In this document: piece after piece, positions 8,314-59,021 of the stretch
Position numbering within the stretch: position 1 is the stretch's first letter
Layout of the letters: each line of letters opens with the position of its first letter
Assembly: GCF_001866075.3 (NCBI RefSeq)
Contig: NZ_CP063356.1
Location: 2,718,164-2,782,163 of the forward strand
Source: Anaerobacillus isosaccharinicus
Lineage (GTDB): Bacteria; Bacillota; Bacilli; Bacillales; Anaerobacillaceae
Direction: 5' to 3'
DNA: 64,000 bases
Notes under the pieces: generated by a model
Database searches by the model: none
Told to the model about the DNA's origin: nothing
What the model saw: the letters and a program-made list of their open reading frames with translations, nothing else
Translations under genes and position numbers: made by a program

Positions 8314-8416
8314 TGAATTATGAATTATGAATTGTGAATAACGCTCAATACTTCGAAGCAATTGCCCAAAAATAATTCTACATCCTACATTCTACATTTT
8401 ACACTCTACATTTTAA
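8314..8416. repeat. Heptad inverted repeat, copy 1
   Basis: Left arm: tandem 7-mers of the GAATTAT type (8314-8340). Core: CTTCGAAGC (8351-8359). Right arm: tandem 7-mers of the ATTCTAC type (about 8374-8416). It lies between convergent murC and the M29 peptidase gene and ends 2 nt from the latter's stop codon. The two arms use different 7-mer variants here, so they pair poorly. Confidence 0.75.
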
Positions 8417-8418
8417 AT

Positions 8419-9534
8419 TTATTTCAAGTTCTCTGGATTTAATCCTTGCAATGCATCAATCACAAATCGTCCGTCTTTGCGAATAAGGACATCGTCAAAG
8501 TACATTTCACCCCCGCCGTATTCTGGGCGTTGAATGTTAACAATATCCCAATGGATCGATGAATGGTTATCGTTAAAGGCATCATCGTAACATTGTCCAG
8601 GAGTAAAGTGGAAACTTCCATCAATTTTTTCGTCAAATAAAATGTCTTTCATCGGGTGTTGAATAAAAGGATTTACACCGATGGCAAATTCTCCGATGTA
8701 ACGAGCTCCTTCATCAGTGTCAAAAATTTTGTTTAAACGTTCAGAATCGTTTGCTGTTGCTTCAACTACTTGTCCATCTTTAAAAGTTAATTTAATATTT
8801 TCAAATGTAAAACCTTGGTAAGGTGATGGTGTGTTGTAAGTAATCGTCCCGTTTACAGAATTTTTCACAGGAGCTGTGTAGACTTCCCCATCAGGTATGT
8901 TTAGTTCACCTGCACATTTGACAGCAGGAATATCCTTAATTGAAAATGTTAGATCAGTTCCTTCTCCAGTTATGTGTACTTTGTCTGTTTTATTCATGAG
9001 GTCAACTAACGCATCCATTGCTTTATCCATCTTTCCATAGTCTAAGTTACAAACATCAAAGTAGAAATTTTCAAAAGCTTCCGTACTCATATTAGCGAGT
9101 TGGGCCATCGAAGCGCTTGGATAGCGAAGTACTACCCATTTAGTTTTAGGAACACGAATTTCTCTATGTACTTTAGTGCCTACCGTCTTTCCATGTAGTG
9201 TCATTTTTTCAGATGGAACATCGGATAATTCACTGATGTTATCACCAGCACGTAATCCAATGTATGCATCCATTTTTTTCATGACATTTGCTTCAAATTC
9301 AGCGATTAAGTTCATTTGTTCCTCATTAGCATTAAGAAGTAATGCTCGGTCAACTTCATGTTCTTTAAGCGAGACAAATGGATTACCACCAGCTTTGTAA
9401 GCTTCATCAACAAGGGCTTTTACAAGCTCTTTTTGAAGTCCGAAATTTTCGATAAGAACATTCTCACCTTTTTGTAATCTAAGAGAATAATTAATTAAGT
9501 TTTTTGCTAAAATTTGAATTCGTGGATCTCGCAT
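8419..9534 (-). CDS. M29-family metallo-aminopeptidase (AmpS/PepS-like)
   Basis: A 371-residue cytoplasmic aminopeptidase that removes N-terminal residues from peptides using a two-metal centre. M29 hallmarks are in the C-terminal half: GEFAIGVNP (metal-binding Glu), HPMKDILFDEKIDGSFHF, and NHSSIHWDIV with His and Asp ligands. The N-terminal domain (residues 1-140) has the usual GENVLIENFG start. Length matches the family (about 370-410). AGGAGG lies 10 nt upstream of the ATG. It is transcribed alone, convergent with murC and divergent from the ytxG stress cluster. Confidence 0.9.
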   Translation of the reverse strand: MRDPRIQILAKNLINYSLRLQKGENVLIENFGLQKELVKALVDEAYKAGGNPFVSLKEHEVDRALLLNANEEQMNLIAEFEANVMKKMDAYIGLRAGDNISELSDVPSEKMTLHGKTVGTKVHREIRVPKTKWVVLRYPSASMAQLANMSTEAFENFYFDVCNLDYGKMDKAMDALVDLMNKTDKVHITGEGTDLTFSIKDIPAVKCAGELNIPDGEVYTAPVKNSVNGTITYNTPSPYQGFTFENIKLTFKDGQVVEATANDSERLNKIFDTDEGARYIGEFAIGVNPFIQHPMKDILFDEKIDGSFHFTPGQCYDDAFNDNHSSIHWDIVNIQRPEYGGGEMYFDDVLIRKDGRFVIDALQGLNPENLK

Positions 9535-9712
9535 GCAATAATCCTCCTAATTATATGTATTTATTAATTCGAGCATAAAAATAGTTTAACCTTAATTCAT
9601 CCTTTTCGTCTAATTTAAGTTAATTTTTTTTCTGATATATTTAAAGGAATTGTGGATGCTTTGTAGAATAGGTAAAGAAATGCTAAAATAAAAGGAATTT
9701 CAGGTCCTATAA

Positions 9713-9738
9713 GTTTAATATTTCTTGGACAAGGGTAT
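9713..9738 (+). promoter_or_regulatory. SigB-type general-stress promoter of the ytxG cluster
   Basis: GTTTAA (9713-9718), a 14-nt spacer and GGGTAT (9733-9738) match the Bacillus SigB consensus (GTTTAA ... GGGWAW) in both boxes. The position, 47 nt before the ytxG start, fits. The B. subtilis ytxGHJ operon is known to be stress-induced through SigB, which supports the call. Confidence 0.75.
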
Positions 9739-9784
9739 TTAGAGAATTAAAGACCAATTTAATCTCATCAAGGAGGTGTGCACA

Positions 9785-10228
9785 ATGGAAATCATATTAT
9801 ATTTAAGTATTGCGCTTGTAGCGATTGCATTTACCGTTTTAGTTATTTATGTTGCTAAAACCTTAACTGCTGTTCAAAGAACGTTAAATAATGTTGCCAA
9901 TACAATGGAAGGCTTAAATAAGCAAATGGACGGGCTAACTAGAGAAACAACAGAACTACTACATAGAACTAATCAATTAGCTGATGATATTCAAGAAAAA
10001 TCAAAATCGTTAAATACAGTTTTCGACTCTGTCAAAGATCTTGGTGGTTCATTAAGTGGTTTAAATCAATCGATTCGTAAAGTGTCCAATTCTGTTGCCA
10101 AAACAACAGAAGAGCAAAGCGACACCATTGCCCAAACTGTTCAATGGGGTAATGTAATTATTGATTTATATACTAAGTGGAAAGCTAAAAAGGCTGCTGA
10201 GCAAAAAAAGACGGATCTAAATTGTTAA
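9785..10228 (+). CDS. ytxG: YtxG, DUF948 general stress protein
   Basis: A 147-residue membrane-anchored protein. Residues 3-24 form an N-terminal helix (ILYLSIALVAIAFTVLVIYVA). The rest is a long coiled-coil-like region with heptad-spaced Leu/Ile/Val (TLTAVQRTLNNVANTMEGLNKQ and on), typical of DUF948. The molecular role is unknown; in B. subtilis it belongs to the SigB general stress regulon. The ATG (9785) has AAGGAGGTG 6-7 nt upstream. The GTG nine bases earlier overlaps that site and is unlikely. It is the first gene of ytxG-ytxH-brxC, behind a SigB-like promoter. Confidence 0.88.
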   Translation: MEIILYLSIALVAIAFTVLVIYVAKTLTAVQRTLNNVANTMEGLNKQMDGLTRETTELLHRTNQLADDIQEKSKSLNTVFDSVKDLGGSLSGLNQSIRKVSNSVAKTTEEQSDTIAQTVQWGNVIIDLYTKWKAKKAAEQKKTDLNC

Positions 10229-10319
10229 TTAAGTAAAGATAGGTAATCTCCGTCGAAGAGTACATACACCATTTGCCTATTTTTGAATAAATAATATTGA
10301 ATAAGGGAGGAAGAAAACA

Positions 10320-10784
10320 ATGAGTAATGATAACAATATGAATACAAAAGATTTTTTAATAGGTGCATTAGTGGGGGGCTTAGTAGGTGCTGCATCGGCT
10401 TTACTGTTAGCACCTAAATCAGGTAAAGAGTTAAGAGAAGATTTAAACAATCAGGCATTAACGGCAAAAGAAAAAACGTCTGGGTTAACACAAACTGCTT
10501 TAGAAAAAGGGACTCAATATGCAAGTTTAGCGAAAGAGAAATCTTCAACAATTGCGAAAACTGTATCAGAGCAATCTTCCCATTTAGTAGGTCGTGTAAA
10601 AGAGTTAACTGAAAATGTAAGAAGAGATGTTGAGGAGTTAAGTCAATCTGCAGATGATCTTACAGCAGATTTTGAAGAAGCAGGGATTGAAATTGCTAAT
10701 ACAGTTAAAAAAGAAGTAGCTGAGCTTCATGATGCGGTAAAAGAGGAAGTTGCTAGTGAAGAAGCAGCTCCAACAAGAGCTTAA
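10320..10784 (+). CDS. ytxH: YtxH-like general stress protein
   Basis: A 154-residue protein with the YtxH (Gas-vesicle-like) signature: a Gly/Ala-rich N-terminal membrane segment (FLIGALVGGLVGAASALLLAP, residues 12-32) followed by KSGKELREDL. The remaining 110 residues are amphipathic helix rich in Ala, Glu, Lys and Ser (EKSSTIAKTVSEQSSHLVG, DVEELSQSADDLTADFEEA). GGGAGG precedes the ATG. It follows ytxG by 91 nt and probably shares its SigB-type promoter. A hairpin terminator after it would reduce readthrough into brxC. The exact function is not known. Confidence 0.88.
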   Translation: MSNDNNMNTKDFLIGALVGGLVGAASALLLAPKSGKELREDLNNQALTAKEKTSGLTQTALEKGTQYASLAKEKSSTIAKTVSEQSSHLVGRVKELTENVRRDVEELSQSADDLTADFEEAGIEIANTVKKEVAELHDAVKEEVASEEAAPTRA

Positions 10785-10827
10785 GATATTATCGTATTTT
10801 AAATATTTCTGCTAAAAGATAATAATC

Positions 10828-10860
10828 AGGCTATTCTATTTTATAGAGTAGTCTTTATTT
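10828..10860 (+). terminator. Intrinsic terminator between ytxH and brxC
   Basis: AGGCTATTCTA (10828-10838) pairs with TAGAGTAGTCT (11 bp with G-U pairs), followed by TTATTT. It may be leaky and set the ytxGH to brxC ratio. Confidence 0.6.
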
Positions 10861-10895
10861 ATGCAAATAATGATGAAAAAAAGGAGCTAATTATA

Positions 10896-11219
10896 ATGGC
10901 GCTAGAAAAATTATCAACTATTGAAGAACTTGATCAACTACTTCAAGAGAAGGATCGAGTGTTATTTCTAAAAAATAGTACGACATGTCCAGTCAGTCAT
11001 GAAGCTTTTCGTCAATATGAAGAGTTAGCAAATGAATTAGAAGAAACAATTTATTACTTAAATGTCCAGGAAGCGAGACCTTTTTCAAATCAAATTGCGG
11101 AACAATTTGCAGTAAAACACGAAAGCCCACAAGCGTTGCTTTTTAAAAATGGAAAAGTAACCTGGCATGATTCCCATTGGAAGATTACTTATAAAAACCT
11201 TAAAGCAATTTTAAATTAG
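10896..11219 (+). CDS. brxC: Monothiol bacilliredoxin BrxC (YtxJ)
   Basis: A 107-residue thioredoxin-fold protein that removes bacillithiol from proteins or acts in bacillithiol redox balance in the cytoplasm. The active site TTCPVSHEAF (Cys at about residue 31) is CxxS: the second cysteine is replaced by Ser, as in the YtxJ family. The fold continues with the FAVKHESPQALLF strand, with its cis-Pro, and the KITYKNLKAIL helix. AAAGGAG precedes the ATG. It is the last gene of the ytxG-ytxH-brxC stress cluster. Its stop codon touches a heptad inverted repeat. Confidence 0.88.
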   Translation: MALEKLSTIEELDQLLQEKDRVLFLKNSTTCPVSHEAFRQYEELANELEETIYYLNVQEARPFSNQIAEQFAVKHESPQALLFKNGKVTWHDSHWKITYKNLKAILN

Positions 11220-11304
11220 AAATTATGAATTATGAATTTTTTAGTAATGCTTCGAAGCAAAACCTTAAGAACATTAATAATTCATAATTAACAATTCATA
11301 ATTA
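11220..11304. repeat. Heptad inverted repeat, copy 2
   Basis: The left arm has GAATTAT-type 7-mers starting right after the brxC stop codon. The core is GCTTCGAAGC (11249-11258). The right arm has two AATTCATAATTA units. It runs directly into the bidirectional terminator shared with the convergent FtsA-like gene. Confidence 0.75.
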
Positions 11305-11333
11305 AAAAAGCTAGGACTATGTCCTAGCTTTTT
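11304..11333. terminator. Bidirectional terminator overlapping a stop codon
   Basis: AAAAAAGCTAGGAC (11304-11317), TAT, and GTCCTAGCTTTTT (11321-11333) form a hairpin with T runs on both strands. On the minus strand the stem contains the last codons and TAG stop of the FtsA-like gene (stop at 11317-11319). Confidence 0.85.
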
Positions 11334-13473
11334 CCATCCATTTTATATCTAGATGATCACCAGTATGAATTGGTGTTGAGAAAGTGGCGTTCATATCATT
11401 TCGTAAGATCGTTATTGTCTTGTTTTCTTGGGCAGTGAAGTTAAACTCTACAAAGCGGAAAATATCCTGGAAAATAAAAGGATCTTTTTGTTTCATCGTA
11501 GCAGTTAGGTTGTCACCTTGACGAATATAACTTTTCTCATTTAACGGTTCCTCGCCTCGTTTTACCTCTACTAGTGGTTTTGATACTTGAACAGGGTTTC
11601 CATTAAAATAAACGGTTATTTCATGAACAATTGGTATGCCTTCGTGAATAAGAAGCTTTTCAACGGTAAATTGTTGATCTACGAGGCCGTTAATCGTAAT
11701 AACATCCCCGTTTTGCACAATTGAATTAGCTTTTGCAGGAAGGCCATTTTTAATAATTGCATCCTCATTTAAGATCGATATTTTCTTGCTATTTAATGTT
11801 ACAACAAATGGTTTTAAGCCCTGGATAATATCATAAAGCTCTAACATTTTTAGTACAGCTTCAATTGAGTTTGAAGTCTCAATGATCAACTCATCGCGAT
11901 CTTCAATCGTTTCCTTTAACGAGACCGACTTTCCATTTTTAATGATAGAAGCTTTTAATGTGTAACTTTTCCCATTAATGGTTACTGATTTTGTAGGTAA
12001 ATCTTCGATGACATCACCGACAGTTGCTTCAGCACATCTCCCATTAGCGCCACTTTGGACAAAGATTGTATCTCCATCACTTAACGGCATATCTAATGAG
12101 CAAATATGTCCATTTTTCTCCAGTATCGGTGGCTCACCATGCTCACCTGGGATAGAGATGAGGCGGTCATTTACTTTCACCATAATGGCCATTCCTGGCT
12201 TACCATAAAGCTTTGAAAGCTCAATTCCTGCAGCGAGCAATCCATCACCAACTGTTAGTTGTTTAATGTCAAACAATCGAATGGTTTGATCATTTACTTT
12301 TACACTTACGTATTCTACAGGGCTTTCTTTAGCTGCAATGGCAATACCAATTGGCGTAACGAGCTCAGGGCCTGCTTTTATGCTATCAGGAATTGTTAAA
12401 GACTTAATCGCATCAATGCCTCTAATAGCGACTCTATTTTCAGGCAACTGCAAAGAGTTTGCGATAACTTTTGCTAAATTTGGAGTCATTGAACCACCAC
12501 CGACTAACATAACTGCTTTTGGTGGTTTTTTATTTAGATTTAAAATTTCAGTTGTAATATGATAGGCAAGGTTTTCAATTGCCTTAGAAATAGGCTCGAT
12601 TATTTCTTCTCGGGAATGGGTTGTCTCAAACCCCAAAATATCTGTCAGTATCACTTCATCTTGTGTAGATAGTTGTCTTTTCACGATTTCAGCTTCTGGG
12701 AAATCAAGTAAAAAGTGATCACTAATTGCTTCAGTAATCTCATCTCCAGCAACTGGGACCATTCCATATGCAGTGACAGTACCTAAATCAGTGATCGCTA
12801 TATCTGAAGTCCCTGCGCCAATATCTACAAGAGCTACATTTAATCGTCTCATTGTTGGTGGGATTAAAACATTTATTGCTGCAATCGGCTCTAGCGTTAA
12901 TGCTTCAAGTTCAAGCCCAGCACGGTTTAATGCGGCGAGTAATGATTCCACGACGACTTTTGGCAAAAATGTTGCAATAACTTCAACGGCAGCAACGTAA
13001 CCACTCTGATCAACTAGACTACCAATTTCTTCACCATCAAGTTGATAGGACAAGACTGAATAGCCAACACAGTAGTAATTAATACTTTTTTGTCCTTCAT
13101 GTTCCTGAGCAATCTCATATTGCGCTTTTTGAACTGCACTTAACTCTAAATGTAATATATCTTGATGTTCGAAAATTGGCTTTTTTGCAATATCTACTTC
13201 CATTTTAGCTCGTGTCGTTTTTAATGAACGTCCTGCTGCAGCGACACATACTTTATGTAAGGGGCCATGTTTTACTTCTAATTTTTGTTTAATAGAAGTA
13301 ATGACTTTTGTAACAGCCATAACGTTATGAATCTGACCGTCCACCATCGAACGTTCTTCGTGTTCTTGAATCTCCATATCAAGAATTTCATAGTTTGTCC
13401 CATTGTTTTTTAAGAGAAGACCAACAACTGAACGTGTTCCGATATCTAATCCGAAAATTGGTGATTGTTCCAT
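11317..13473 (-). CDS. Long FtsA/PilM-like ATPase with repeated C-terminal domain
   Basis: A 718-residue protein of the actin/Hsp70 ATPase fold with an FtsA-type SHS2 insertion. The phosphate-1 loop is FGLDIGTRSVVGLLL (residues 8-22); phosphate-2 is VALVDIGAGTSDIAI (near 215-230); the adenosine motif is AVMLVGGGSMTPNLAKVIA (near 320-340). It is not the canonical ftsA, which is about 420-440 aa and sits next to ftsZ. Residues about 400-718 form an extra region with five similar units ending in [G/R]D-x-[I/L] (near 466, 526, 588, 652 and 705). A role in envelope or division processes is inferred only. AAGAAGGTG precedes the ATG. It is transcribed alone, convergent with brxC and divergent from aroA. 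Confidence 0.75.
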   Translation of the reverse strand: MEQSPIFGLDIGTRSVVGLLLKNNGTNYEILDMEIQEHEERSMVDGQIHNVMAVTKVITSIKQKLEVKHGPLHKVCVAAAGRSLKTTRAKMEVDIAKKPIFEHQDILHLELSAVQKAQYEIAQEHEGQKSINYYCVGYSVLSYQLDGEEIGSLVDQSGYVAAVEVIATFLPKVVVESLLAALNRAGLELEALTLEPIAAINVLIPPTMRRLNVALVDIGAGTSDIAITDLGTVTAYGMVPVAGDEITEAISDHFLLDFPEAEIVKRQLSTQDEVILTDILGFETTHSREEIIEPISKAIENLAYHITTEILNLNKKPPKAVMLVGGGSMTPNLAKVIANSLQLPENRVAIRGIDAIKSLTIPDSIKAGPELVTPIGIAIAAKESPVEYVSVKVNDQTIRLFDIKQLTVGDGLLAAGIELSKLYGKPGMAIMVKVNDRLISIPGEHGEPPILEKNGHICSLDMPLSDGDTIFVQSGANGRCAEATVGDVIEDLPTKSVTINGKSYTLKASIIKNGKSVSLKETIEDRDELIIETSNSIEAVLKMLELYDIIQGLKPFVVTLNSKKISILNEDAIIKNGLPAKANSIVQNGDVITINGLVDQQFTVEKLLIHEGIPIVHEITVYFNGNPVQVSKPLVEVKRGEEPLNEKSYIRQGDNLTATMKQKDPFIFQDIFRFVEFNFTAQENKTITILRNDMNATFSTPIHTGDHLDIKWMEKART

Positions 13474-13609
13474 TTTACACCTTCTTTACAGGTAGGATTT
13501 ATACTTTTTACTAAAACTTAGCTGGCATTAAATTTTGACAAAGATCCGTTTTTCAGTATTTAAAAACACTTTAGCGCTTAAAAGCGTTTAATTAATAAAG
13601 AAAAAAATC

Positions 13610-13638
13610 GTGACAAGTATTGCTTAATCGTTTATAAT
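13610..13638 (+). promoter_or_regulatory. Candidate SigA promoter of aroA
   Basis: GTGACA (13610-13615), a 17-nt spacer and a perfect TATAAT (13633-13638), about 70 nt upstream of the aroA start. Confidence 0.6.
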
Positions 13639-13710
13639 AATCCCTAACTTATTAGAAATGTATCATATTTTGAGAAAATTTTAAATAACTAAACGAGGAG
13701 TGGAGTAAGA

Positions 13711-14787: not shown

Positions 14788-14800
14788 TAACCTTTCGAGG

Positions 14801-14829
14801 CCTTCTACAGAGATGTGGGAGGCTTCTCT
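14801..14829 (+). terminator. Weak hairpin after aroA
   Basis: GCCTTCTAC and GTGGGAGGC can pair (9 bp with G-U pairs) around AGAGAT. The following sequence has only a short T-rich stretch, so this is a weak terminator at best. Confidence 0.35.
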
Positions 14830-14931
14830 AATGTAAAATGTATGATTTAAAATGTAGAATTTTTTTTAAGATCCTAGCTTCGAAGTAGAACAAATTGAAT
14901 TTTACATTCTACATTCTGCATTCTACATTCA
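14829..14931. repeat. Heptad inverted repeat, copy 3
   Basis: The left arm has AATGTAA/AATGTAT/AATGTAG units (14829-14860). The core is AGCTTCGAAG (14876-14885). The right arm has ATTCTAC/ATTCTGC units (about 14898-14931). It lies between aroA and the lipoprotein gene, which point the same way. Confidence 0.8.
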
Positions 14932-14994
14932 AAAAAGTATAGTTCTCATATGCACGAGATATCCTAACAAAAAATGGGTTAGGAGTTGGAAATA

Positions 14995-21753: not shown

Positions 21754-21826
21754 TTAAAATGTTCAGTAATCTTTCAATACAAAAAACTACGAAGCACAAC
21801 CTACATTCTACATTCTACATTCTACC
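21754..21826. repeat. Heptad inverted repeat, copy 4 (left arm decayed)
   Basis: The right arm has three to four perfect ATTCTAC units (21800-21826), the core is CTACGAAGC (21787-21795) and the left arm is only a trace. The acuC stop codon (21822-21824 on the minus strand) lies inside the right arm. Confidence 0.65.
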
Positions 21827-23660: not shown

Positions 23661-23762
23661 TATTCATTATGAATTGATTTTGAATTTAGAAATGGGAACT
23701 ATTTAGTTGGAAGTGCTACTATGCAAGTTCTAAATTCAACATTTTGATATTATTATGAATTA
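23661..23762. repeat. Degenerate inverted repeat between acuB and acuA
   Basis: TGAATTTAGAA (23680-23690) is inverted as TTCTAAATTCA (23728-23738), with ATTCATTATGAATT to the left and TATTATGAATT to the right. It resembles a decayed heptad repeat, lacks the TTCGAA core, and touches the acuA stop codon. It may modulate expression within the acu operon. Confidence 0.4.
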
Positions 23763-29390: not shown

Positions 29391-29462
29391 TTAAGCAATA
29401 ATACATTAAAATATGAAAAAGCTATGATTGGACAACAGTAGTAGGCATTTCCCTGTTAAAGT

Positions 29463-29521
29463 AATGTTCAAAGATCAGCTAACGATAGCGCTTAGTCTCG
29501 TTAGCTTGATCTTTGAACATT
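29463..29521 (+). promoter_or_regulatory. Extra long hairpin at the front of the tyrS leader
   Basis: A 23-nt arm (29463-29485, beginning AATGTTCAAAGATC) pairs with 29498-29521 with a single bulged base, around a 12-nt loop (29486-29497). No T run follows. It directly precedes T-box Stem I and is not part of the standard T-box fold that I know. Confidence 0.6.
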
Positions 29522-29735
29522 CTAGCTAGAGAGCTGGTGGTCGGTGGAAACCAGTACAAACTTGCTTATGAATTACTTCCAAGAGCATCCTTTGTGAACA
29601 GTATTTTACTTTAAGTAGCGAAGGACGGTTCAAACCGTTATTTTTCCGAGGTGGAAAGTATATTTTACTTTCAACAAGGGTGGTACCGCGACTATAAGCT
29701 CGTCCCTTTTTTGGGATGGGCTTTTTTCTATTTTT
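29522..29735 (+). promoter_or_regulatory. Tyrosine T-box riboswitch of tyrS
   Basis: Stem I begins at AGAGAG (29528-29533). CTGG and CCAG close the upper stem, and the specifier loop shows TAC (29555-29557), a tyrosine codon, as AGTACAAA. The T-box sequence AAGGGTGGTACCGCG (29676-29690) would pair with the uncharged tRNA acceptor end. The competing terminator is AGCTCGTCCC with GGGATGGGCT (about 29698-29720) plus six T residues. Uncharged tRNA-Tyr therefore permits transcription of tyrS. Confidence 0.95.
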
Positions 29736-29775: not shown

Positions 29776-31032
29776 ATGAACTTGTTAAAAGATTTAGAGT
29801 ACCGTGGACTGATTAATCAAGTAACAGATCTAGAAGGATTGACGAAACAATTAGAAGAAGGACAATTGACGCTATATTGTGGATTTGACCCAACTGGGGA
29901 CAGCTTACATATAGGACACTTGTTAACAGTATTAACTTTACGACGTTTTCAATTAGCCGGAAATAGACCACTTGCCCTTGTGGGAGGAGCAACAGGATTA
30001 ATTGGTGATCCAAGTGGAAAAAAAGCCGAGAGAACATTGAATGAAAAAGAAATTGTTGTTCATTTTAGTAACCGTATTAAAGATCAATTATCACGATTTT
30101 TAGATTTTGATGGTCAAAATAGTGCAAAAATCGTAAACAATTATGATTGGATTGGCAATTTAGATGTTATTTCATTCTTAAGGGATGTTGGTAAGAACTT
30201 TGGTGTGAATTACATGCTTGCAAAGGATTCTGTAGAATCGCGTATTCAATCTGGTATATCATTTACTGAGTTTAGTTACATGATTTTACAATCGTACGAC
30301 TTCTTGAAGTTGTTTGAAAATGAAAATTGTCGCCTACAAATAGGTGGTAGTGACCAATGGGGCAACATTACCGCAGGACTTGAATTAATTCGTAAATCAA
30401 CGGATGATGAGGGGAAAGCATATGGCTTTACAATCCCATTAGTAACAAAAAGTGATGGAACCAAATTTGGAAAAACAGAAGGTGGCGCTATTTGGCTAGA
30501 TGCGGAAAAAACATCCCCTTATGAGCTTTACCAATTTTTCATCAATACTGATGATCGCGATGTTGTGAAATTTTTAAAATACTTTACGTTTTTACCGCAC
30601 GAAGAAATTGATGCATTAGTTGAAGAAGTGGCGACAACACCGGAGAAGCGAAGTGCACAACGAAGATTAGCTGAAGAAGTAACGAAACTTGTTCATGGCG
30701 ATGAAGCGTTAGCTCAAGCGATTCGAATTTCCGAAGCTTTATTTAGTGGTGAGATTGCTAATTTAAACGCAAATGAGATAAAACAAGGATTTAAAGATGT
30801 TCCTTCGTATGATTGTAACGAAGATGAAATTAGCTTATTAGAGTTATTAGTGTCTGCAAAAATTGCTCCGTCAAAACGCCAAGGTAGAGAAGATATTCAA
30901 AATGGTGCTATTTATGTGAATGGTGAGCGTACGACGGAGTTAGACAAAATAGTGACAAAGGCTGACCGAATAGAAGGGCAATTTACAATTATTCGCCGTG
31001 GAAAGAAGAAATATTTTTTAATAAACTATTAA
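29776..31032 (+). CDS. tyrS: Tyrosyl-tRNA synthetase TyrS
   Basis: A 418-residue class I synthetase, the main housekeeping type. Motifs: LYCGFDPTGDSLHIGHLLTVL (HIGH, near residue 50), SYMILQSYDFLKLFEN, LQIGGSDQWGNITAGLELIRK, KFGKTEGGAIWLD (KMSKS equivalent), and a C-terminal S4-like domain (SAKIAPSKRQGREDIQNGAIYVNGE). GAAGGAGAG precedes the ATG. It is controlled by the upstream T-box with a UAC specifier. A second, TyrZ-type enzyme lies 10 kb upstream under different control. The stop codon abuts a heptad inverted repeat. Confidence 0.97.
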   Translation: MNLLKDLEYRGLINQVTDLEGLTKQLEEGQLTLYCGFDPTGDSLHIGHLLTVLTLRRFQLAGNRPLALVGGATGLIGDPSGKKAERTLNEKEIVVHFSNRIKDQLSRFLDFDGQNSAKIVNNYDWIGNLDVISFLRDVGKNFGVNYMLAKDSVESRIQSGISFTEFSYMILQSYDFLKLFENENCRLQIGGSDQWGNITAGLELIRKSTDDEGKAYGFTIPLVTKSDGTKFGKTEGGAIWLDAEKTSPYELYQFFINTDDRDVVKFLKYFTFLPHEEIDALVEEVATTPEKRSAQRRLAEEVTKLVHGDEALAQAIRISEALFSGEIANLNANEIKQGFKDVPSYDCNEDEISLLELLVSAKIAPSKRQGREDIQNGAIYVNGERTTELDKIVTKADRIEGQFTIIRRGKKKYFLINY

Positions 31033-31136
31033 AATGTAAAATGTAGAATTCAGAATGTAGAATTAGGTATGAAAGCAATGCTTCTATGGTGTTGCTTTCA
31101 ATAATTCTACATTCTACATTATAAATTCTACATTTT
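31031..31136. repeat. Heptad inverted repeat, copy 6
   Basis: The left arm has AATGTAA, AATGTAG and AATTCAG units starting in the tyrS stop codon. The core is a hairpin, GAAAGCAA (31071-31078) with TTGCTTTC (31092-31099). The right arm has ATTCTAC units up to the cytochrome stop codon (31136-31138). It fills the whole gap between the two convergent genes. Confidence 0.85.
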
Positions 31137-31420
31137 TATTTTTGCTTCGATACCCATGTGGCTACTCTTTCGGCATTTTCTCCAGTTAAGATATTAGCTT
31201 CCATGCCTTCATCACCATTTATAATACTATGTAAGATGTCATTTTTCTTTAAGCCGCGAATTCCTGACGCTAAACCCGTCCCGTTTAATTCAAGACCATG
31301 GCAGCCGGCGCAGTTTTTATTGAATAATGTTATCGTTTCGTTTTCCCTCAGAGTAGCAGCTTCGCTATTACAAGCAACAAGGAAGAGGGAAGATGCAATT
31401 AAGATGATTGCTTTTTTCAT
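31136..31420 (-). CDS. Lipoprotein cytochrome c-551 (CccB-like)
   Basis: A 94-residue small c-type cytochrome anchored outside the cell membrane. Residues 1-17 form a lipoprotein signal with lipobox LVAC (KKAIILIASSLFLVAC). Haem is attached at CAGCH (near residue 38), and the distal ligand is likely the Met in GDEGMEANIL. Such proteins shuttle electrons to terminal oxidases. ATG 31418-31420 has AAAGGGG upstream; the ten codons before it lack a site. It is convergent with tyrS. The size is slightly below that of B. subtilis CccB (about 112 aa). Confidence 0.88.
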   Translation of the reverse strand: MKKAIILIASSLFLVACNSEAATLRENETITLFNKNCAGCHGLELNGTGLASGIRGLKKNDILHSIINGDEGMEANILTGENAERVATWVSKQK

Positions 31421-31456: not shown

Positions 31457-31556
31457 TGAATTTCATAATTTTGTCTTATTGTCATTAAGATACTATAAAT
31501 AGTTGCGTATCTGTTTATAGATTGATATGGCTCGTTTTTGGTAATTATGAAATTCA
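31457..31556. repeat. MITE-like element with 14-bp inverted ends, copy A
   Basis: The ends TGAATTTCATAATT (31457-31470) and AATTATGAAATTCA (31543-31556) are perfect inverted repeats. The interior shares CTTATTGTCATTAAG and CGTTTTTGGTAATT with a second, shorter copy at 62534-62604. It has no coding capacity. It sits just upstream of the cytochrome gene. Confidence 0.65.
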
Positions 31557-45708: not shown

Positions 45709-45711
45709 CTG

Positions 45712-45827
45712 GAAATGTAGAATGTAGAATGTAGAATTTAGAATGTAAAATGACTATTTGTGGAGATTGCTTTGCAAAGTTTTCTCTCATATTTTCATTA
45801 ACATGATAAATTCTATTTTTTTGTTTA
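45712..45827. repeat. Heptad inverted repeat, copy 7 (right arm decayed)
   Basis: The left arm is long and regular: AATGTAG three times, AATTTAG, AATGTAA (45713-45752). The core has TTGCTTTGCAAAG. The right arm is weak (TTCATTAACATG, AAATTCTA). It starts 4 nt after the yteJ stop. Confidence 0.7.
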
Positions 45828-50585: not shown

Positions 50586-50725
50586 TTAAAAAATTTTCCA
50601 TACACAAAGTCGCGTATTTGTATTGAAAGAAGTATGCCAAATCTGTCATTCATTGAATTTAATATTTTTGTTACAGAGGTAAGTTTAGTAAAATAGATAG
50701 TAGCAAGCTATTTGGAGTGATTTAT

Positions 50726-51673: not shown

Positions 51674-51678
51674 CATGA

Positions 51679-52512: not shown

Positions 52513-52588
52513 TTTACCCAATATCCAGCATATTTCTTCAATACATTGACAAGTTGTTGTAAAATGAAGTTACATATTGGGGGTGTGT

Positions 52589-52903
52589 TTGTTGTATCGT
52601 TTTGAGTATGACCAACGTTTAGGGATTGCTATTCCTGATCTAGACCAAGAATGGCACCGCATTGATAAATCTACACAAGAAGAGATCTTGTCCCAATGGG
52701 AAGAAATTAGAGGAGATATTCCTGATCGTGTTAAACAACTAGAAGAAAAAATTAATCAAAAACAAAAAGCACTATTTAATGAAGACAACTTCAAAAAATC
52801 GTGTGAAATAAATACAGAAATCTCAGAACTAGCTTCAACAATCAACGACCTTTGGCTTTGGTTTAGAGCACAAAATGAGATTTCTACGAAAAGCCATCAT
52901 TAA
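52589..52903 (+). CDS. Small helical protein, unknown function
   Basis: Unrecognised protein of about 104 residues. It begins YRFEYDQRLGIAIPDLDQEWHRI, then a coiled-coil-like helix (PDRVKQLEEKINQKQKALFNEDNFKK) and a C-terminal INDLWLWFRAQNE. No signal peptide, membrane helix or known catalytic motif is visible. The start is probably TTG 52589 or 52592, both just after GGGGGTG. An earlier TTG (52577) sits on that site. A heptad repeat starts at its stop codon, and a terminator-like hairpin further on overlaps the next gene's ribosome binding site. Confidence 0.65.
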   Translation: MLYRFEYDQRLGIAIPDLDQEWHRIDKSTQEEILSQWEEIRGDIPDRVKQLEEKINQKQKALFNEDNFKKSCEINTEISELASTINDLWLWFRAQNEISTKSHH

Positions 52904-53007
52904 AAATGTAGAAACTAGAATGTAAAATGTAATTCGAAAGGGAAAGCTACGAAGCATTGCATAAATCATTCTAAATTCTACATTTTGCATTTTACATTCT
53001 ACATTAA
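52903..53007. repeat. Heptad inverted repeat, copy 8
   Basis: The left arm has AATGTAG, AAACTAG, AATGTAA, AATGTAA (52904-52932). The core is GCTACGAAGC (52946-52955). The right arm has ATTCTAA, ATTCTAC, ATTTTGC, ATTTTAC, ATTCTAC (about 52967-53004). It begins in the stop codon of the preceding gene. Confidence 0.8.
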
Positions 53008-53011
53008 AGAC

Positions 53012-53059
53012 CCTCCACTTGCTCATCCTACACTTAGAAGAGTTGTGGAGGTTTTTTTT
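53012..53059 (+). terminator. Terminator-like hairpin that contains the next gene's ribosome binding site
   Basis: CCTCCAC (53012-53018) pairs with GTGGAGG (53045-53051), then eight T residues run up to the ATG at 53060. GGAGG is the Shine-Dalgarno of the hydrolase gene, so folding would both end transcription and hide the site. Confidence 0.6.
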
Positions 53060-53893: not shown

Positions 53894-53987
53894 TAATTAT
53901 CAACTTTTTTTATAAATATGTATTGCAAAAAACGTAGAATGTTGATAAAGTATTGATTAACGATTTATTTGGTATTCAAGTTTGATT

Positions 53988-54019
53988 AGAGAGCTTTAAA
54001 CAAAAGCCTCTTTTCTTTT
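53988..54019 (+). terminator. Terminator or attenuator-like hairpin before argG
   Basis: GAGAGCTTT and AAAGCCTC pair around AAACA with T-rich sequence after (TTTTCTTTT). It may end the hydrolase transcript or, if the argG promoter lies upstream, attenuate argGH. Confidence 0.45.
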
Positions 54020-54082
54020 AGAAACCAATGTATAAATATAATTAATTAAGCATCAATATTCATAAATGGGGGAATGACTGAA

Positions 54083-55291
54083 ATGAGTAAGAAGAAAGTA
54101 GTGTTAGCGTATTCTGGTGGATTAGATACATCTGTAGCAATTAAATGGTTAGGAGACCAAGGTTATGATGTATACGCTGTTTGTTTAGATGTAGGTGAAG
54201 GAAAAGACCTTCAATTTATAAAAGAAAAAGCAATAACTGTTGGTGCAGTTCAATCTTACACGGTTGATGCAACAAAAGAATATGCAGAAGAGTTTGTACT
54301 GACTGCTTTACAAGCACACGCAATGTATGAAGGCAAATATCCGCTTGTTTCAGCACTTTCTCGCCCACTAATTTCAAAAAAATTAGTTGAGATTGCAAAT
54401 CAAATCGGTGCAGACGCTGTAGCCCACGGATGTACAGGAAAAGGAAATGACCAAGTACGTTTTGAAGTGTCAATTCAATCGTTAAATCCAGATTTAGAAG
54501 TATTAGCACCTGTACGTGAGTGGGGTTGGAGCCGTGATGAAGAAATTGAATATGCGAAGACGCATAACATCCCAATTCCAGTAAATTTAGATAATCCATA
54601 TTCTGTTGACCAAAATCTTTGGGGCAGAAGTTGTGAATGTGGTGTTTTAGAAGATCCATGGGCAACACCACCTGAAGGCGCATATGAGTTAACGGTTGCT
54701 TTAGAAAATACACCTAACGAGGCAGAATATGTTGAAATCGGCTTTAATGAAGGTGTACCAGTGACGTTAAATGGAAAAGCATTTGAGCTTGATCACTTAA
54801 TTTTAGAGCTTAATAGCATTGCAGGAAAACATGGTGTTGGACGAATTGACCATGTTGAAAATAGATTAGTAGGAATTAAATCACGTGAAGTGTATGAGTG
54901 CCCAGGTGCTACTACACTACTAAAAGCACATAAGGAATTAGAAGATTTAACATTAACAAAAGAAGTAGCTCATTATAAGCCAGTTATTGAAAAGAAAATT
55001 ACCGAAATGATTTATGATGGCTTATGGTTCTCACCGTTAATGCCAGCTCTTCAAGCGTTTCTAAAAGAAACACAAAAAACAGTAACAGGAACTGTTCGTG
55101 TAAAACTGTTTAAAGGTCATGCCATTGTGGAAGGACGTAAATCTGAATTCTCACTATATGATGAAAAGCTTGCAACCTACTCATCTGATGATGAATTTGA
55201 CCACAGTGCAGCAGTTGGATTTATTAAACTTTGGGGATTACCAACAAAAGTTCATAGTATGGTAACAAAGAAGGGAGTAAATCAACAGTGA
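54083..55291 (+). CDS. argG: Argininosuccinate synthase ArgG
   Basis: A 402-residue ATP-dependent ligase joining citrulline and aspartate to argininosuccinate. The PP-loop is [20 protein letters not shown] at the N-terminus. Other motifs: [37 protein letters not shown] and [19 protein letters not shown] 54083 has GGGGG 10 nt upstream; the earlier ATG (54074) is 1 nt from it. TATGAAT just upstream (minus strand) resembles one half of an arginine-repressor box and would be a natural place for AhrC/ArgR. It overlaps argH by 4 nt. Confidence 0.97.
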
Positions 55292-56670
55292 CAGCTAAAC
55301 TTTGGGGCGGACGTTTTACAAAAAAAGCAGAAAGTTGGGTGGATGCCTTTGGGGCATCCATTGGCTTTGATAAAGAATTAGTTAAAGAAGATATTCAAGG
55401 GAGCGTTGCTCACATCAAGATGCTTGGTAAGTGTGGTATTGTTCCACAAGCAGATGTAGAAAAAATAATCTCTGGACTCGGGATTATTCTAGAAAAAGCC
55501 GAAAAAGGTCAACTGGACTATAATGTCCAAAATGAAGATATCCACCTGAATATTGAAAAGTTTTTAATTGATGAAATTGGCGAAGTTGGTGGAAAGCTTC
55601 ACACTGGTAGAAGTCGAAACGATCAAGTAGCCACAGATATGCATCTTTACTTACGAAATCAAGTAAAAGAAATGATGGAATCAATTAAGCATCTTCAAGA
55701 AGCCATTCTTGAACAAGGTAAGCAACATGTAGAAACTATTATTCCTGGTTATACCCATTTGCAAAGGGCTCAACCAATTTCCTTTGCCCATCATCTAATG
55801 ACTTACTTCTGGATGTTAGAGAGAGATTATGAGCGTTTTCATGATAGTTTAAAACGCATTAACATCTCGCCATTAGGAGCAGGTGCTCTTGCAGGGACAA
55901 CATTCCCAATTGACCGTGAGTATACTGCAGAACTTTTAGGTTTTGATTCGATTTATGAGAACAGTATGGATGCAGTTAGTGATCGCGACTTTATTGTTGA
56001 ATTTCTAAGTAACTCTTCAATGGTGATGATGCATTTATCACGTTTTTGTGAAGAACTTATCCTATGGTCAAGTCAAGAGTTTCAATTTGTCGAAATAGAT
56101 GATGCTTTTGCTACGGGGAGTAGTATTATGCCTCAAAAGAAAAACCCGGATATGGCTGAATTGATCCGTGGAAAAACTGGCCGAGTTTATGGAAACCTGT
56201 TTTCATTACTAACAGTGTTAAAAGGTTTACCATTGGCTTATAACAAAGATATGCAAGAAGATAAAGAAGGCATGTTCGATACAGTTCATACTGTAAAAGG
56301 AAGCTTACAAATCTTTGCTGGAATGATTGAGACGATGAAAGTCTTAGGTGCAAATATGGAGAAAGCAACGAATGAAGATTTCTCTAACGCGACTGAACTT
56401 GCTGATTATCTAGCGACAAAAGGGATGCCATTCCGTGCTGCTCATGAGGTAGTAGGGAAACTAGTTCTCCACTGTATTCAAAACAAAAAGTTTTTACTAG
56501 ACTTAACAATGGAAGAATTTAAAGAAGCTAGCTCACTGTTTGAAGACAACATCTATCAAGTGCTAGAGCCGAAAACGGTTGTTGCTAGACGTAACAGTGC
56601 AGGTGGAACTGGATTTGAGCAAGTAAAGGTAGCCCTTACTAAGGCAGAGATGTTAATTAGTCGAAAATAA
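55288..56670 (+). CDS. argH: Argininosuccinate lyase ArgH
   Basis: A 460-residue fumarase-superfamily lyase that splits argininosuccinate into arginine and fumarate. Motifs: [66 protein letters not shown] and the signature [20 protein letters not shown] (catalytic Ser in GSSIMP). It starts with GTG, whose last bases form the argG stop (GTGA), so the two are translationally coupled. A GGGAG site lies within the end of argG. A terminator follows. Confidence 0.97.
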
Positions 56671-56674
56671 GTCA

Positions 56675-56704
56675 AGGAGGCTGACCAATTGGTTAGCCTC
56701 TTTT
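56675..56704 (+). terminator. Terminator of argGH
   Basis: AGGAGGCTGACC pairs with GGTTAGCCTC (one G-U) around AATT, followed by TTTT. Confidence 0.8.
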
Positions 56705-56763
56705 AGCATTGTAATAAGGATAAATTTTTCTATTGCATGGAAGCTTTAGGCCGCCAATGTACT

Positions 56764-57198
56764 CTAATTACGAACGATTAGCACGTCGCACTTTGCACTC
56801 CTAGCAATGTATTCTGAAACACTTCCAATAAGAAGGCGTTCTACAGCATTCAAACCTGTAGCACCTGTAATAATTAAATCGATCTCATATTTATTTGCCA
56901 AATCTTTTGAAACTTTTACTTTAGGTGATCCGAAATCTAGGACACATACAGCCTCTATGCCAGCTTTTTCAACTTCAGCTTTATATTCAGTAAGCATGTC
57001 CTTGGCGTATTCTTCTGCTCTAGTAACAATAGCTCTGTCGTACTGTTCGACAGTTGCAAATGTTCTAGTGTCGACTACGTGACTGATAAAGATTTTCGCA
57101 TGATCTTTTTTAGCAATATCGATCGCTTTAAGTAATGCCTTCTTTGCTTCGTTTGAACCATCAACTGCTACTAAAATGTTTGCGTAGTTTTTTTCCAT
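56764..57198 (-). CDS. UspA-family universal stress protein
   Basis: A 144-residue UspA-fold protein of the ATP-binding subgroup. ILVAVDGSNEAKKALLKAI forms the first strand and loop, and the nucleotide motif G-2x-G-9x-G-[ST] is present as GATGLNAVERLLIGSVSEY (near residue 110). Such proteins aid survival in starvation or stress; the specific role is unknown. AAGGAGTG precedes the ATG. It is encoded alone, opposite to argGH, and divergent from a 45-codon gene. Confidence 0.92.
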   Translation of the reverse strand: MEKNYANILVAVDGSNEAKKALLKAIDIAKKDHAKIFISHVVDTRTFATVEQYDRAIVTRAEEYAKDMLTEYKAEVEKAGIEAVCVLDFGSPKVKVSKDLANKYEIDLIITGATGLNAVERLLIGSVSEYIARSAKCDVLIVRN

Positions 57199-57340
57199 GG
57201 GATCACTCCTTAATATAAAAAATGTATGTCTTTACAACTTAAGTATATCATGAATGAACTACTAAAATTTGGTTAAGCTGACATAAATCATGAATGATTG
57301 ATGAATAATATTTTATGAGGAAAGAAGGAGGTGTTGATGA

Positions 57341-57478
57341 ATGAAGGACCCAAAGTTTCAAAACACGATTTTTGATGAAGAAGGCGAAGCTGTTGTTAGA
57401 CAACAATTATTAGATTCTTACTATGAAGGTACAACTGATACGAAAAAAAGAGATGAAATTGAACTTCAAGATAACTAA
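57341..57478 (+). CDS. Small acidic protein (45 aa)
   Basis: A 45-codon frame, MKDPKFQNTIFDEEGEAVVR ... QQLLDSYYEGTTDTKKRDEIELQDN, with GAAGGAGG 9 nt before the ATG and a perfect 11-bp-stem terminator 12 nt after the stop. That combination argues for a real monocistronic gene. The protein is strongly acidic and soluble. I do not recognise the family; it could be a sporulation or stress protein, but nothing shows this. Confidence 0.65.
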   Translation: MKDPKFQNTIFDEEGEAVVRQQLLDSYYEGTTDTKKRDEIELQDN

Positions 57479-57489
57479 TAAATATATCC

Positions 57490-57521
57490 AAACCTTGGTA
57501 TTTTGTTACCAAGGTTTTTAC
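57490..57521 (+). terminator. Terminator of the small acidic protein gene
   Basis: AAACCTTGGTA (57490-57500) pairs perfectly with TACCAAGGTTT (57507-57517), followed by a T-rich run. Confidence 0.88.
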
Positions 57522-57648
57522 TTTTACATAAGTCTATTAAAATTGCCTAAATAAATAACTGTAGGCATTCTTTTTTACTTTAAATTTACATAACACTATA
57601 ATAATGGTTGAAAGTAAGTGATTTATTAATGGGGGGGAGAAGATTTCC

Positions 57649-58407
57649 ATGCGTCATGCTTTGATCACAGCTGGAACGAAAGGTTTAGGAAAAAAAGTAA
57701 CTGAAAAGCTACTAGAAGATGGTTATAAGGTTTCAGTTAGTTACCGTAGCGATAAAGAAGCCGCGGAACGTTTGGCAATCGAATGGAAAAAGTATCATGG
57801 TTCCTTTCAATTTATTCAAGCCGATGTTACAAAAAAAGAAGAGTTGATTGATCTTGTTGACCATGCTGTAAACTCCTTCGGAAACATTCACATATTAGTA
57901 AATAATGCAGGACCCTATGTGTTTCAAAGAAAGAAGCTATTAGATTATAGTGAGAATGAATGGTATGAAATGCTAGAAGGAAATTTAAGTAGTGTTTTTC
58001 ATCTCGTAAAAAAAGTAATTCCGATGATGCGTGAGGAGAAATTCGGACGAATTATTACGTATGGATTTCAAGGTGCAGAAGGAACTCCAGGTTGGCTTTA
58101 TCGCTCTGCCTTTGCAGCAGCAAAAGTTGGCCTCGTATCGCTTACTAAAACAATTGCAATAGAAGAAGCGGAAAATGGTGTCACAGCTAATATGGTTTGT
58201 CCGGGTAATATTGTAGGCGATATGAAGGAAGCTTCAATTGCAGAATCTAGGCAAGTTTTTGATAGAGATACTCCAGTAGGTAGATCTGGGACAGGAGAAG
58301 ATATTGGTCGTGTTATATCATTTCTCTGCCATGAAAATTCTGATATGATTACAGGTACAGTCATAGAAGTTACTGGAGGCGTAGACGTATTACATCGTTT
58401 CCGATAA
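57649..58407 (+). CDS. ytkK: YtkK, SDR-family protein without the usual catalytic residues
   Basis: A 252-residue short-chain dehydrogenase/reductase fold. The cofactor loop is LITAGTKGLGKKV (TxxxGxG, residues 6-14), and the NNAG motif is present as LVNNAGPYVF. Where active SDRs have Ser and Tyr-x3-Lys, this protein has RIITYGFQGAEG and SAFAAAKVGLVSL: Phe replaces Tyr, only the Lys remains, and the Ser is absent. GNIVGD and VTGGVDV close the fold. It may be a non-catalytic NAD(P)-binding protein. GGGGGGAGAAG precedes the ATG. The name follows its order before ytkL. Confidence 0.8.
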   Translation: MRHALITAGTKGLGKKVTEKLLEDGYKVSVSYRSDKEAAERLAIEWKKYHGSFQFIQADVTKKEELIDLVDHAVNSFGNIHILVNNAGPYVFQRKKLLDYSENEWYEMLEGNLSSVFHLVKKVIPMMREEKFGRIITYGFQGAEGTPGWLYRSAFAAAKVGLVSLTKTIAIEEAENGVTANMVCPGNIVGDMKEASIAESRQVFDRDTPVGRSGTGEDIGRVISFLCHENSDMITGTVIEVTGGVDVLHRFR

Positions 58408-58505
58408 ATAATGTAAAATGTAAAATTTAGAATGTAGAATTATTTGTAAGGCTTCGAAGCAAAACAAAACCAATTCTACATTTTACATTCTGCATTATAC
58501 ATTAG
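58408..58505. repeat. Heptad inverted repeat, copy 9
   Basis: The left arm has AATGTAA twice, AATTTAG, AATGTAG (58409-58437). The core is GGCTTCGAAGC (58450-58460). The right arm has ATTCTAC, ATTTTAC, ATTCTGC, ATTATAC (about 58472-58500). It begins just after the ytkK stop. One of the best-paired copies. Confidence 0.85.
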
Positions 58506-58551
58506 TATAAATCATCCATTATTTACTAATAGTAGTAATGAGGTGATACAC

Positions 58552-58926
58552 ATGAAAAAATTATTAATTCCAGTTTTGTTTATTGGTTGTTTGATCATAT
58601 TTCCTTCCCAAAGTAGTGCTCTTAATTTAATGGAAAGTTTCTTTTTAAAAATTACCGTTTTAGAAAAGGATATTGAATATCAATGGGAATACACGAGTCC
58701 AGGAAAGTATGAGTATGAAAAAGGAGAAAAAGTAATAAAAACAAAAGAAGCAAAAGAAGAGATGGCGCATATCCTTCAAATACTAGATTTATCTGAAAAA
58801 GCGAATGTTGAAAATATGGTCAAAGCATTAAAAGAAGACCGTTTCCCACACTTAGAACGCCTCGACATCCGCTGGATGACAGGCGAGCATAAATTATATA
58901 CATGGGTTTGGGATGCAAATGACTAA
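58552..58926 (+). CDS. Small secreted protein, unknown function
   Basis: Unrecognised 124-residue protein. Residues 1-25 form a signal peptide (MKKLLIPVLFIGCLIIFPSQSSA) with a likely cut after SSA. The mature part is charged and looks folded: FFLKITVLEKDIEYQWEYTSPG, a helix KEAKEEMAHILQILDLSEKANVENM, and a C-terminal LDIRWMTGEHKLYTWVWDAND. The start is ATG 58552 with GAGGTGA upstream. It lies between two heptad repeats, and the second begins within its stop codon. It is not part of the conserved ytkK-ytkL order as I know it. Confidence 0.7.
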   Translation: MKKLLIPVLFIGCLIIFPSQSSALNLMESFFLKITVLEKDIEYQWEYTSPGKYEYEKGEKVIKTKEAKEEMAHILQILDLSEKANVENMVKALKEDRFPHLERLDIRWMTGEHKLYTWVWDAND

Positions 58927-59021
58927 TGTAGAATGTATAATGTAGAATTTAAAATTTTTGAGGGAGGTGCTTCGAAGGCTCCTCCTTTAAAATTTCATTT
59001 TACATTTTACATTCTACATTA
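58923..59021. repeat. Heptad inverted repeat, copy 10
   Basis: The left arm has AATGTAG, AATGTAT, AATGTAG, AATTTAA, starting in the TAA stop of the secreted-protein gene. The core is GGAGGTGCTTCGAAGGCTCC. The right arm has ATTTTAC, ATTTTAC, ATTCTAC, ending at ATTA, which is the stop of the opposing M24 peptidase gene (59019-59021). It thus contributes to both stop codons. Confidence 0.85.

Follow-up and report, generated by a model that had tools for sequence, protein, structure and literature searches.

The intergenic DNA of Anaerobacillus isosaccharinicus contains a dispersed element in which two arrays of tandem 7-bp units (heptads) face each other across a palindromic core. This raises the question of what such symmetric arrays are: hairpins in RNA, mobile repeats, by-products of slippage, or sites on DNA. 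The element was analyzed in a stretch of 64,000 nucleotides (the window; positions 2718164-2782163 of the single 5.23 Mb contig NZ_CP063356.1 of the genome studied, G000), where an initial annotation had listed ten copies, as well as in further stretches of G000 and in relatives. The element does form a genuine family, although not one of conserved RNA hairpins. In the best reading, which we hold tentatively, its copies are symmetric DNA sites for a putative heptad-recognizing protein.

Architecture and Copy Number of the Element

The units conform to the consensus RARTKNW, and the main heptad variant, or dialect, of G000 is RAATGTA (231 of 430 units). Among internal units lying between perfect units, 69 of 100 were perfect, 21 differed at one base, usually position 5 or 6, and 10 differed at more. 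When arrays of at least three units were considered, four units were found in 39 of 99 arrays, three in 29 and five in 23, placing 91 of the 99 in the range of three to five; a few had 6 to 19 units, including arrays of 9, 12 and 19. By eye, the arms are AT-rich.

Adjacent arrays no more than 100 bp apart were convergent in 27 of 29 cases, two pointed in the same direction and none were divergent. Between the arrays lies a dyad core of the form G-N4-GCTTCGAAGC-N4-C. For the core profile, 55 of 63 clusters were retained (core with up to three mismatches) and 32 elements were profiled; the G five bases before the core and the C five bases after it each reached 69%. The exact core occurs 24 times in the 864 kb of G000 used for cluster counts, part of which was picked for known hits, and 23 of these occurrences adjoin heptads, whereas eight other 10-bp palindromes of equal GC content occur only 0 to 1 times each. 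With up to two mismatches, the core was present in 13 of the 20 gaps between strict convergent array pairs of G000 (0.8% for the shuffled control), and the same test gave 3/3 in G005, 3/3 in G003 and 1/1 in G002. Three of the five exact cores of G003 adjoin heptads.

The sequences around the core behave differently from the arms and the core itself. The spacers (28 bases around the core) of 35 G000 elements, drawn from the 57 elements selected by core and arms for the core-flank pairing test described below, showed a median identity of 37.5% and a maximum of 71%, compared with a median of 28.6% and a maximum of 68% for shuffled spacers. The same elements align over 100 nt at a median of 75% because their arms and cores are alike, with aligned arm units being about 80% identical. 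The spacers are thus near-random, while arms and core are conserved.

A second core type, a terminator-like palindrome with ACCTTTGTGAA, was found in L239 (9183-9341) and L158 (11673-11875), and a related form is present in L213 (1496-1578). One flank of this core carries GAATTAT arrays and the opposite flank GAATGTA arrays, which in L239 are long and perfect. These copies are possibly the youngest. In addition, L168 (12091-12237) carries a very long near-perfect GAATGTA array in one orientation and without a periodic partner arm, apparently a recent expansion.

Outside the window, 23 clusters were counted in 620 kb of stretches picked without regard to hits (evenly spaced stretches totaling 400 kb gave 10, the 140 kb surrounding the window gave 12, and 80 kb of others gave 1). 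The density of about 37 copies per Mb extrapolates to an estimated 200 copies per genome; the initial annotation had predicted hundreds. The window is richer than average (9 copies in 64 kb). The 864 kb contained 63 heptad clusters by a first rule and 70 by a unit-based rule. A whole-genome profile search, the figures of which are lower bounds, gave at least 151 matches, corresponding to at least about 75 copies since most copies were matched on both strands. The heptad pattern with up to two mismatches gave 380 and 347 matches per strand, compared with 117 and 105 for a backwards control.

Copies in the Window

Period scans of the window yielded 14 segments with period 7, 10 with its harmonic, period 14, and 0 or 1 with each of periods 4-6 and 8-13. 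In 464 kb (the window and 20 stretches, one every 250 kb), period 7 accounted for 42 segments and 13 complementary pairs, and period 14 followed it with 33 segments and 9 pairs; periods 4-6 gave none, and periods 8-13 gave 4-17 segments each and no pairs. All 14 window segments with period 7 fall inside nine of the ten listed copies:

8314..8416: mixed-dialect element, GAATTAT on the left, core ACTTCGAAGC at 8350-8359, CTACATT on the right at 8374-8412
11220..11304: GAATTAT element in both arms, exact core at 11249-11258, between convergent genes
14829..14931: RAATGTA element with a degraded left arm and clear periodicity in the right, core GCTTCGAAGT at 14877-14886
21754..21826: partial element, right-arm heptads, core ACTACGAAGC at 21786-21795, left arm without periodicity
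23661..23762: degenerate relic at best, no period 7, weak core GCTACTATGC at 23715-23724 with three mismatches
31031..31136: RAATGTA element, variant core GCTTCTATGG at 31080-31089
45712..45827: RAATGTA-type left-arm element, periodic at 45710-45753, no consensus core (best match with four mismatches), right arm nonperiodic
52903..53007: element with core GCTACGAAGC at 52946-52955, beginning at a stop codon
58408..58505: element with exact core at 58451-58460, immediately 3' of a stop codon
58923..59021: element with core GCTTCGAAGG at 58969-58978, occupying the gap between two convergent stop codons

Of the copies to which a common plan had been ascribed, nine thus show heptad periodicity, and 23661-23762 lacks it. 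In the strict scan, both arms were periodic in five copies (8314, 11220, 31031, 58408 and 58923), as proposed for all, while only the right arm was periodic in 14829, 21754 and 52903, only the left arm in 45712, and neither in 23661. A laxer scan added the left arm of 52903 and one unrelated segment (31369-31395). Likewise, the proposed TTCGAA-type core, in the form of GCTTCGAAGC, was found with up to two mismatches in seven of the ten copies, with three mismatches in 23661 and 31031, and with four in 45712.

The 8314 copy lies between convergent genes and adjoins a stop codon at 8419, and the 31031 copy occupies the entire gap from the tyrS stop codon to a convergent stop codon. No Rfam family matches the element in the window, the sole match being a T-box (29415-29710) upstream of tyrS. 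The tyrS gene of the window shares 88-89% identity with its counterparts in Anaerobacillus arseniciselenatis, A. alkalilacustris and an Anaerobacillus metagenome-assembled genome.

Folding and Covariation of the Arms

The initial annotation had ascribed to every copy the ability to form a single long hairpin. Single-strand folding was indeed stronger than that of shuffled sequences in seven of the ten window copies (z -2.8 to -10.8); no signal was obtained for 8314 (z -0.45) and 21754 (z 0.19), and only a weak one for 23661 (z -1.88). The arms of 8314 do not pair with each other, GAATTAT on the left facing AATGTAG on the right.

Clear compensatory changes, which had been expected from arms that vary while staying complementary, were not found by arm swaps, RNAalifold or hand pairing. 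In 27 two-armed elements, the identity between left and right units was 80.3%, compared with 80.5 ± 1.1% when right arms were swapped between elements. RNAalifold predicted 0 pairs for 35 elements. In hand-paired arms, 80.6% of the cells pair, compared with 82.0 ± 0.6% after reshuffling of the 3' letters, and 497 of 500 shuffles equaled or exceeded the 80.6%; slid controls paired at 28-47%, as expected with a structure drawn from the consensus. Further tests covered those 19 of the 27 elements in which both arms are of the main class. Their arms were 82.3% identical compared with 84.9 ± 1.0% for swapped arms, and in a fixed innermost register the difference had the same sign and was not significant. 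If real, this difference suggests an avoidance of perfect palindromes. The bases flanking the core paired no more than expected by chance (182 of 456 vs 173 ± 9 when shuffled, p = 0.18, 57 elements). Taken together, the symmetry resembles that of a repeated DNA site in which each half fits the consensus, and not that of a maintained stem.

Shared Sites and Changing Dialects in Relatives

Orthologous gaps of 30-1200 bp, with both flanks located in the relative, were compared over 204 kb with those of five relatives. For G000 and G005, the element was present in both at 10 sites, in G000 only at 10, in G005 only at 3 and in neither at 98 (Fisher p = 3e-7). The corresponding numbers were 7, 6, 2 and 53 for G003 (p = 5e-5), 4, 13, 0 and 86 for G002 (p = 5e-4), 0, 8, 0 and 37 for G006, and 0, 6, 0 and 33 for G001. 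The threshold used misses weak elements such as those of G005 at 31032 and 58407. As a control, a repeat resembling miniature inverted-repeat transposable elements (MITEs) was scored in the same gaps; albeit with small numbers, it was shared once between G000 and G005 (1/5/2/113) and never in 14 other species pairs. This inverted repeat has TGAATTTCATAAT and ATTATGAAATTCA ends, lies in the window at 31457-31556 and 62534-62604, is represented by 16 ends in 864 kb of G000 and also occurs in relatives. Another dispersed repeat, with CTTGCGCTAGACAG, belongs to G001; it occupies gaps that hold heptad elements in G000, such as the one downstream of tyrS (L033), and is absent from the window.

At 8 of the 10 sites common to G000 and G005, the majority dialect class differs. 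At one site in L156, identical flanking bases enclose an element in each of four species, and its arms consist mainly of RAATGTA in G000, RAGTGTA/RAGTTTA in G005, RAGTTTT in G003 and RAATTAT in G002. The dialects RAATGTA, RAGTGTA, RAGTTTA and RAGTTTT are each one step apart, and all these units were observed. Similar differences are seen at the window sites. At 31031, GAGTTTT-type elements are present by eye in G003, G004 and G005 (the latter below the threshold of the orthology comparison). At 52903, heptads of other dialects occur in G005, G003 and G002, and at 58923, RAGTTTT-type elements occur in G005 and G003 and none in G002. The site of the relic at 23661 scores as a heptad element in G003, and in G005 it contains by eye CTACATT-type units and a core-like ACTTCGAAGC. 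Empty orthologous sites, for which a search had been suggested, were found as well: G002 has no heptads at 58408, where G005 has a weaker element below the threshold, nor at 14829, where G003 also lacks heptads and G005 has a GAGTGTT-type element.

Five of the seven genus members carry the element and two, G001 and G006, are nearly without it. In the profile search, G002-G005 gave at least 121-154 matches and G001 gave 16 (both strands). In a tree of eight proteins, G000 grouped with G005 (support of only 0.58), followed by G002, G006 and G003+G004, with G001 beside the outgroups; the split nesting G006 inside the genus tree had a support of 0.94. In our reading, the sites form a single ancient set that was lost in G006 and whose arms were rewritten. 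Rewriting in place is the most likely course, re-insertion at the same sites being less likely. The occurrence of species dialects at shared places suggests that some factor reads or copies the heptads.

Gene Context and Wider Distribution

Mapping of the copies, using gene calls from a simple custom caller, placed most of them near gene ends. From the 70 clusters, 66 intergenic ones were retained, of which 48 have tandem, 11 convergent and 7 divergent neighboring genes; by the first rule, 6 of 63 lie between divergent genes. In tandem gaps, no more than 15 nt separate 25 of 48 clusters from the upstream stop codon (22% with uniform placement in the same gaps), and the median distance is 11.5 nt to the stop compared with 68.5 nt to the start. 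Between convergent genes, 10 of 11 are within 8 nt of a stop codon. At some sites (e.g., 58407), alignment places the stop codon opposite the one in a species without the element or with a different element. A function of the arrays in supplying stop codons in all frames was considered and set aside, since a T-to-C change at unit position 6 abolishes the TAR stop; among single changes this one ranks second in frequency (5 of 21), and the variant RAATGCA makes up 16 of 430 units.

A strict GAAT-type convergent pattern was detected in 5 of 398 Bacillota genomes, including G000 (0 for the backwards control). In the stretches sampled, the four others have 45-61% GC and other cores, and in several cases their elements end at a predicted stop codon. 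Two distant Bacillota of about 47-52% GC also contain non-GAAT heptads, namely GGAAGTN in G200 (L221-L224) and GACTAAY (inverted) and GCTGANN in G212 (L230-L231), the latter genome being one of these four. Of the six period-7 segments in 100 kb of a Trichormus variabilis plasmid, two begin at or cross an annotated stop codon. The full core pattern (up to two mismatches) was present at 5-24 sites per genome in five genus members, absent in G001 and G006, and found 0-2 times in other genera, which is about control level; within these 101 genomes it looks genus-restricted.

Comparison With Known Repeats

REP/REPIN sequences with their RAYT transposases are dispersed intergenic palindromic repeats that reach high numbers. 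To our knowledge, they contain no heptad arrays, and they differ from the element described here in that no Y1 transposase tracks the latter. Literature searches of open papers yielded no description of the element, which extends the known class of intergenic heptamer repeats.

A close likeness is to the G-rich heptamers of Xanthomonas (GGGAATC) and Nostoc (GGGGAYT). As described in the available text of Rehm et al. (2015; PMC4692102), the Xanthomonas arrays mostly consist of four units, form 70 convergent pairs in one genome and 75 in another, lie closer to the upstream gene end (28 vs 160 nt) and are rare between divergent genes; when two related species are compared, 90% have the same neighboring genes, with varying length and sequence. 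Tandem intergenic 7-bp units, most often four per array among arrays of at least three, convergent pairs and a bias toward the upstream gene end are all found here too. In contrast, the units of the present element are AT-rich and of the form RARTKNW, species dialects occur at shared sites, and there is a palindromic core, which the available text of PMC4692102 does not mention for Xanthomonas or Nostoc. The G-quadruplex potential of those repeats is not shared, as RAATGTA, RAGTKTA, RAGTTTT and RAATTAT have no GGG run; it is a trait of the Xanthomonas and Nostoc cases and not of heptamer repeats generally.

The TAACTGA heptamers of Beggiatoaceae, Cyanobacteria and Bacteroidetes, as presented in the available part of MacGregor (2015; PMC4679880), likewise form intergenic arrays that are sporadic across phyla, and between two Cyanothece strains their indels are mostly 7-nt steps. 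In the main species of that study they are direct repeats just upstream of starts, whereas the arrays described here are convergent pairs mostly at stops. In the P6b stem of the Nostoc trnL intron, with heptad classes TDNGATT and NNTGAGT, two arms of 7-nt repeats have repeatedly swapped one class for another at a fixed site, according to the available text of Kaasalainen et al. (2015; PMC4476775). That case concerns one intron locus and a structural RNA stem, whereas the present one is genome-wide and without clear arm covariation. Finally, omega/ParB of pSM19035 binds contiguous 7-bp parS repeats in direct or inverted orientation, two of which give tight binding and four of which are needed for full stimulation of the ParA ATPase (available part of PMC9499535). 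Since this is a plasmid centromere with WATCACW units, the likeness is one of mechanism only and not of membership.

Interpretation

The reading that we tentatively prefer is that each copy is a dyad-symmetric DNA site, mostly at a gene end, that would be recognized as sequence and not as a folded hairpin. The putative reader would be a trans-acting DNA-binding protein that moves along the array in 7-bp steps and has its mirror image facing it at the core, or such a protein together with a core-binding partner. If all sites answered to this one factor, one heptad dialect would prevail per genome, and a drift in the preference of the factor or in the pool of repeats would change the arms at many sites in place, with slippage and inter-array exchange contributing; core and position would persist. 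At gene ends, the sites might mark or insulate the ends of transcripts, or they might help to organize the chromosome. Protein binding fits because the core is conserved while its flanks are free, the arrays converge, the units are contiguous, one dialect prevails and there is little or no compensation between the arms; omega/ParB of pSM19035 offers a precedent for this mode of binding. Of the three functions suggested by the initial annotation, protein-binding sites are now the best supported, although no protein was found; the hairpin in the 3' untranslated region is left with little support, and recent mobility was not observed.

Several observations weigh against this reading. No factor was found, as the genes for Y1 transposase, RVT_1 and RHH_1 show no correspondence with the presence or absence of the element. 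Y1 transposase (PF01797) had 0 matches in the heptad-rich G003, an 80% complete genome, and 7 in the heptad-poor G006; RHH_1, the one RHH family searched, showed no correlation, with one match in each of 7 genomes. A reverse transcriptase (RVT_1) was rejected as the tracking factor since its distribution does not match that of the element. The near-absence of the element in G006 (2 profile matches) means that the sites are dispensable. The 10-bp cores of orthologs are only weakly more alike than those of non-orthologs (85 vs 80%, p = 0.012, 30 pairs), as are their flanks (39.2 vs 36.7%, p = 0.13), and the attempt to show vertical inheritance through core similarity was weak; because ortholog cores are barely more alike, in-place change is argued from position and tree and not from core ancestry. 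Within G000, left and right arms of the same element share their dialect class more often than expected (23 of 27 vs 17.0, p = 0.0004), and deviations from the dialect are common to the partner unit in 28 of 108 cases (25.9%) compared with 20.1 ± 3.6% in swapped arms. This borderline excess was reached by 29 of 500 shuffles, was not seen in the small sets of G005 (4 elements) and G003 (5), and is probably explained by the agreement in class. The stop-codon link is partly built in because the arrays carry stop codons in several frames. Moreover, neutral slippage and array exchange could yield dialects without any binding protein.

The last point leads to the strongest rival, which we consider somewhat unlikely: neutral or selfish heptamer satellites that arise by slippage and short-homology exchange and are functionless, with the core as a founder relic. 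Slippage has been proposed earlier for heptamers (cited in the available text of PMC4692102), and the single steps that connect the dialects with all units observed, the arrays of 9, 12 and 19 units, the long perfect arrays in L239 and the near-complete loss in G006 are in agreement with such an origin. So is the finding that arms of different dialect class occur in 4 of the 27 two-armed elements and yet concordance is above chance, as with arms that are replaced singly or together. However, the 10-bp core is conserved between near-random N4 flanks and would be too short for upkeep by exchange, the positions are retained where those of another intergenic repeat are not, array length is narrow, and slippage alone would not account for a genome-wide dialect. 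The initial annotation had held that arms without covariation would reduce the family to local slippage noise. Covariation was not found, but this conclusion does not follow because one heptad prevails throughout the genome and both the core and, between species, the positions have been conserved.

A bolder proposal, to which we assign little probability, is that a single reader/writer of heptads holds the roughly 200 sites in one species dialect and rewrites them in place, similar to a telomere template, and that the convergent arrays of Bacillota, Cyanobacteria, Xanthomonas and Bacteroidota form one chromosome-marking system at gene ends. A telomerase-like writer may be retained only as part of this proposal.

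That the element acts as an RNA hairpin in the 3' untranslated region and ends or protects transcripts appears improbable. Its location at stop codons and the seven window copies that fold better than shuffled sequence (z -2.8 or lower) speak for this function. However, neither arms nor core flanks show clear compensation, arms pair with their own partner no better and possibly worse than with those of strangers, the mixed-dialect 8314 copy does not fold, and some clusters lie between divergent genes by both counting rules. Furthermore, separate terminator-like hairpins, seen by eye, adjoin two of the copies, one directly following 11220 and one preceding 14829.

Least probable of all is a non-autonomous MITE- or REPIN-like element moved by a transposase: its copies would be dispersed and present or absent at orthologous sites, as observed (G002 at 58408 and 14829), but no two of the 35 elements share more than 71% of the 28-nt spacers and hence the sample contains no recent spread, no fixed outer end was apparent in 68 arrays, inspection by eye of the few empty sites that could be aligned, from diverged species, showed no target duplication, several species have sites in common, and the Y1 transposase does not track the element.

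The preferred reading, a symmetric DNA site for a heptad-recognizing protein, bears on an older question. Over-represented intergenic heptamers have been noticed in bacteria before, without an accepted explanation of why the unit should be seven. What is new here is the lineage, the defined core, the turnover of dialects at matched sites and the direct test against hairpin covariation, and the case shows that a convincing hairpin in sequence need not function as a hairpin. With a fixed core, many copies, carrier and near-free members of one genus and dialect changes at matched sites, the element is a tractable case in which the question becomes testable through finding the factor that reads the heptads.

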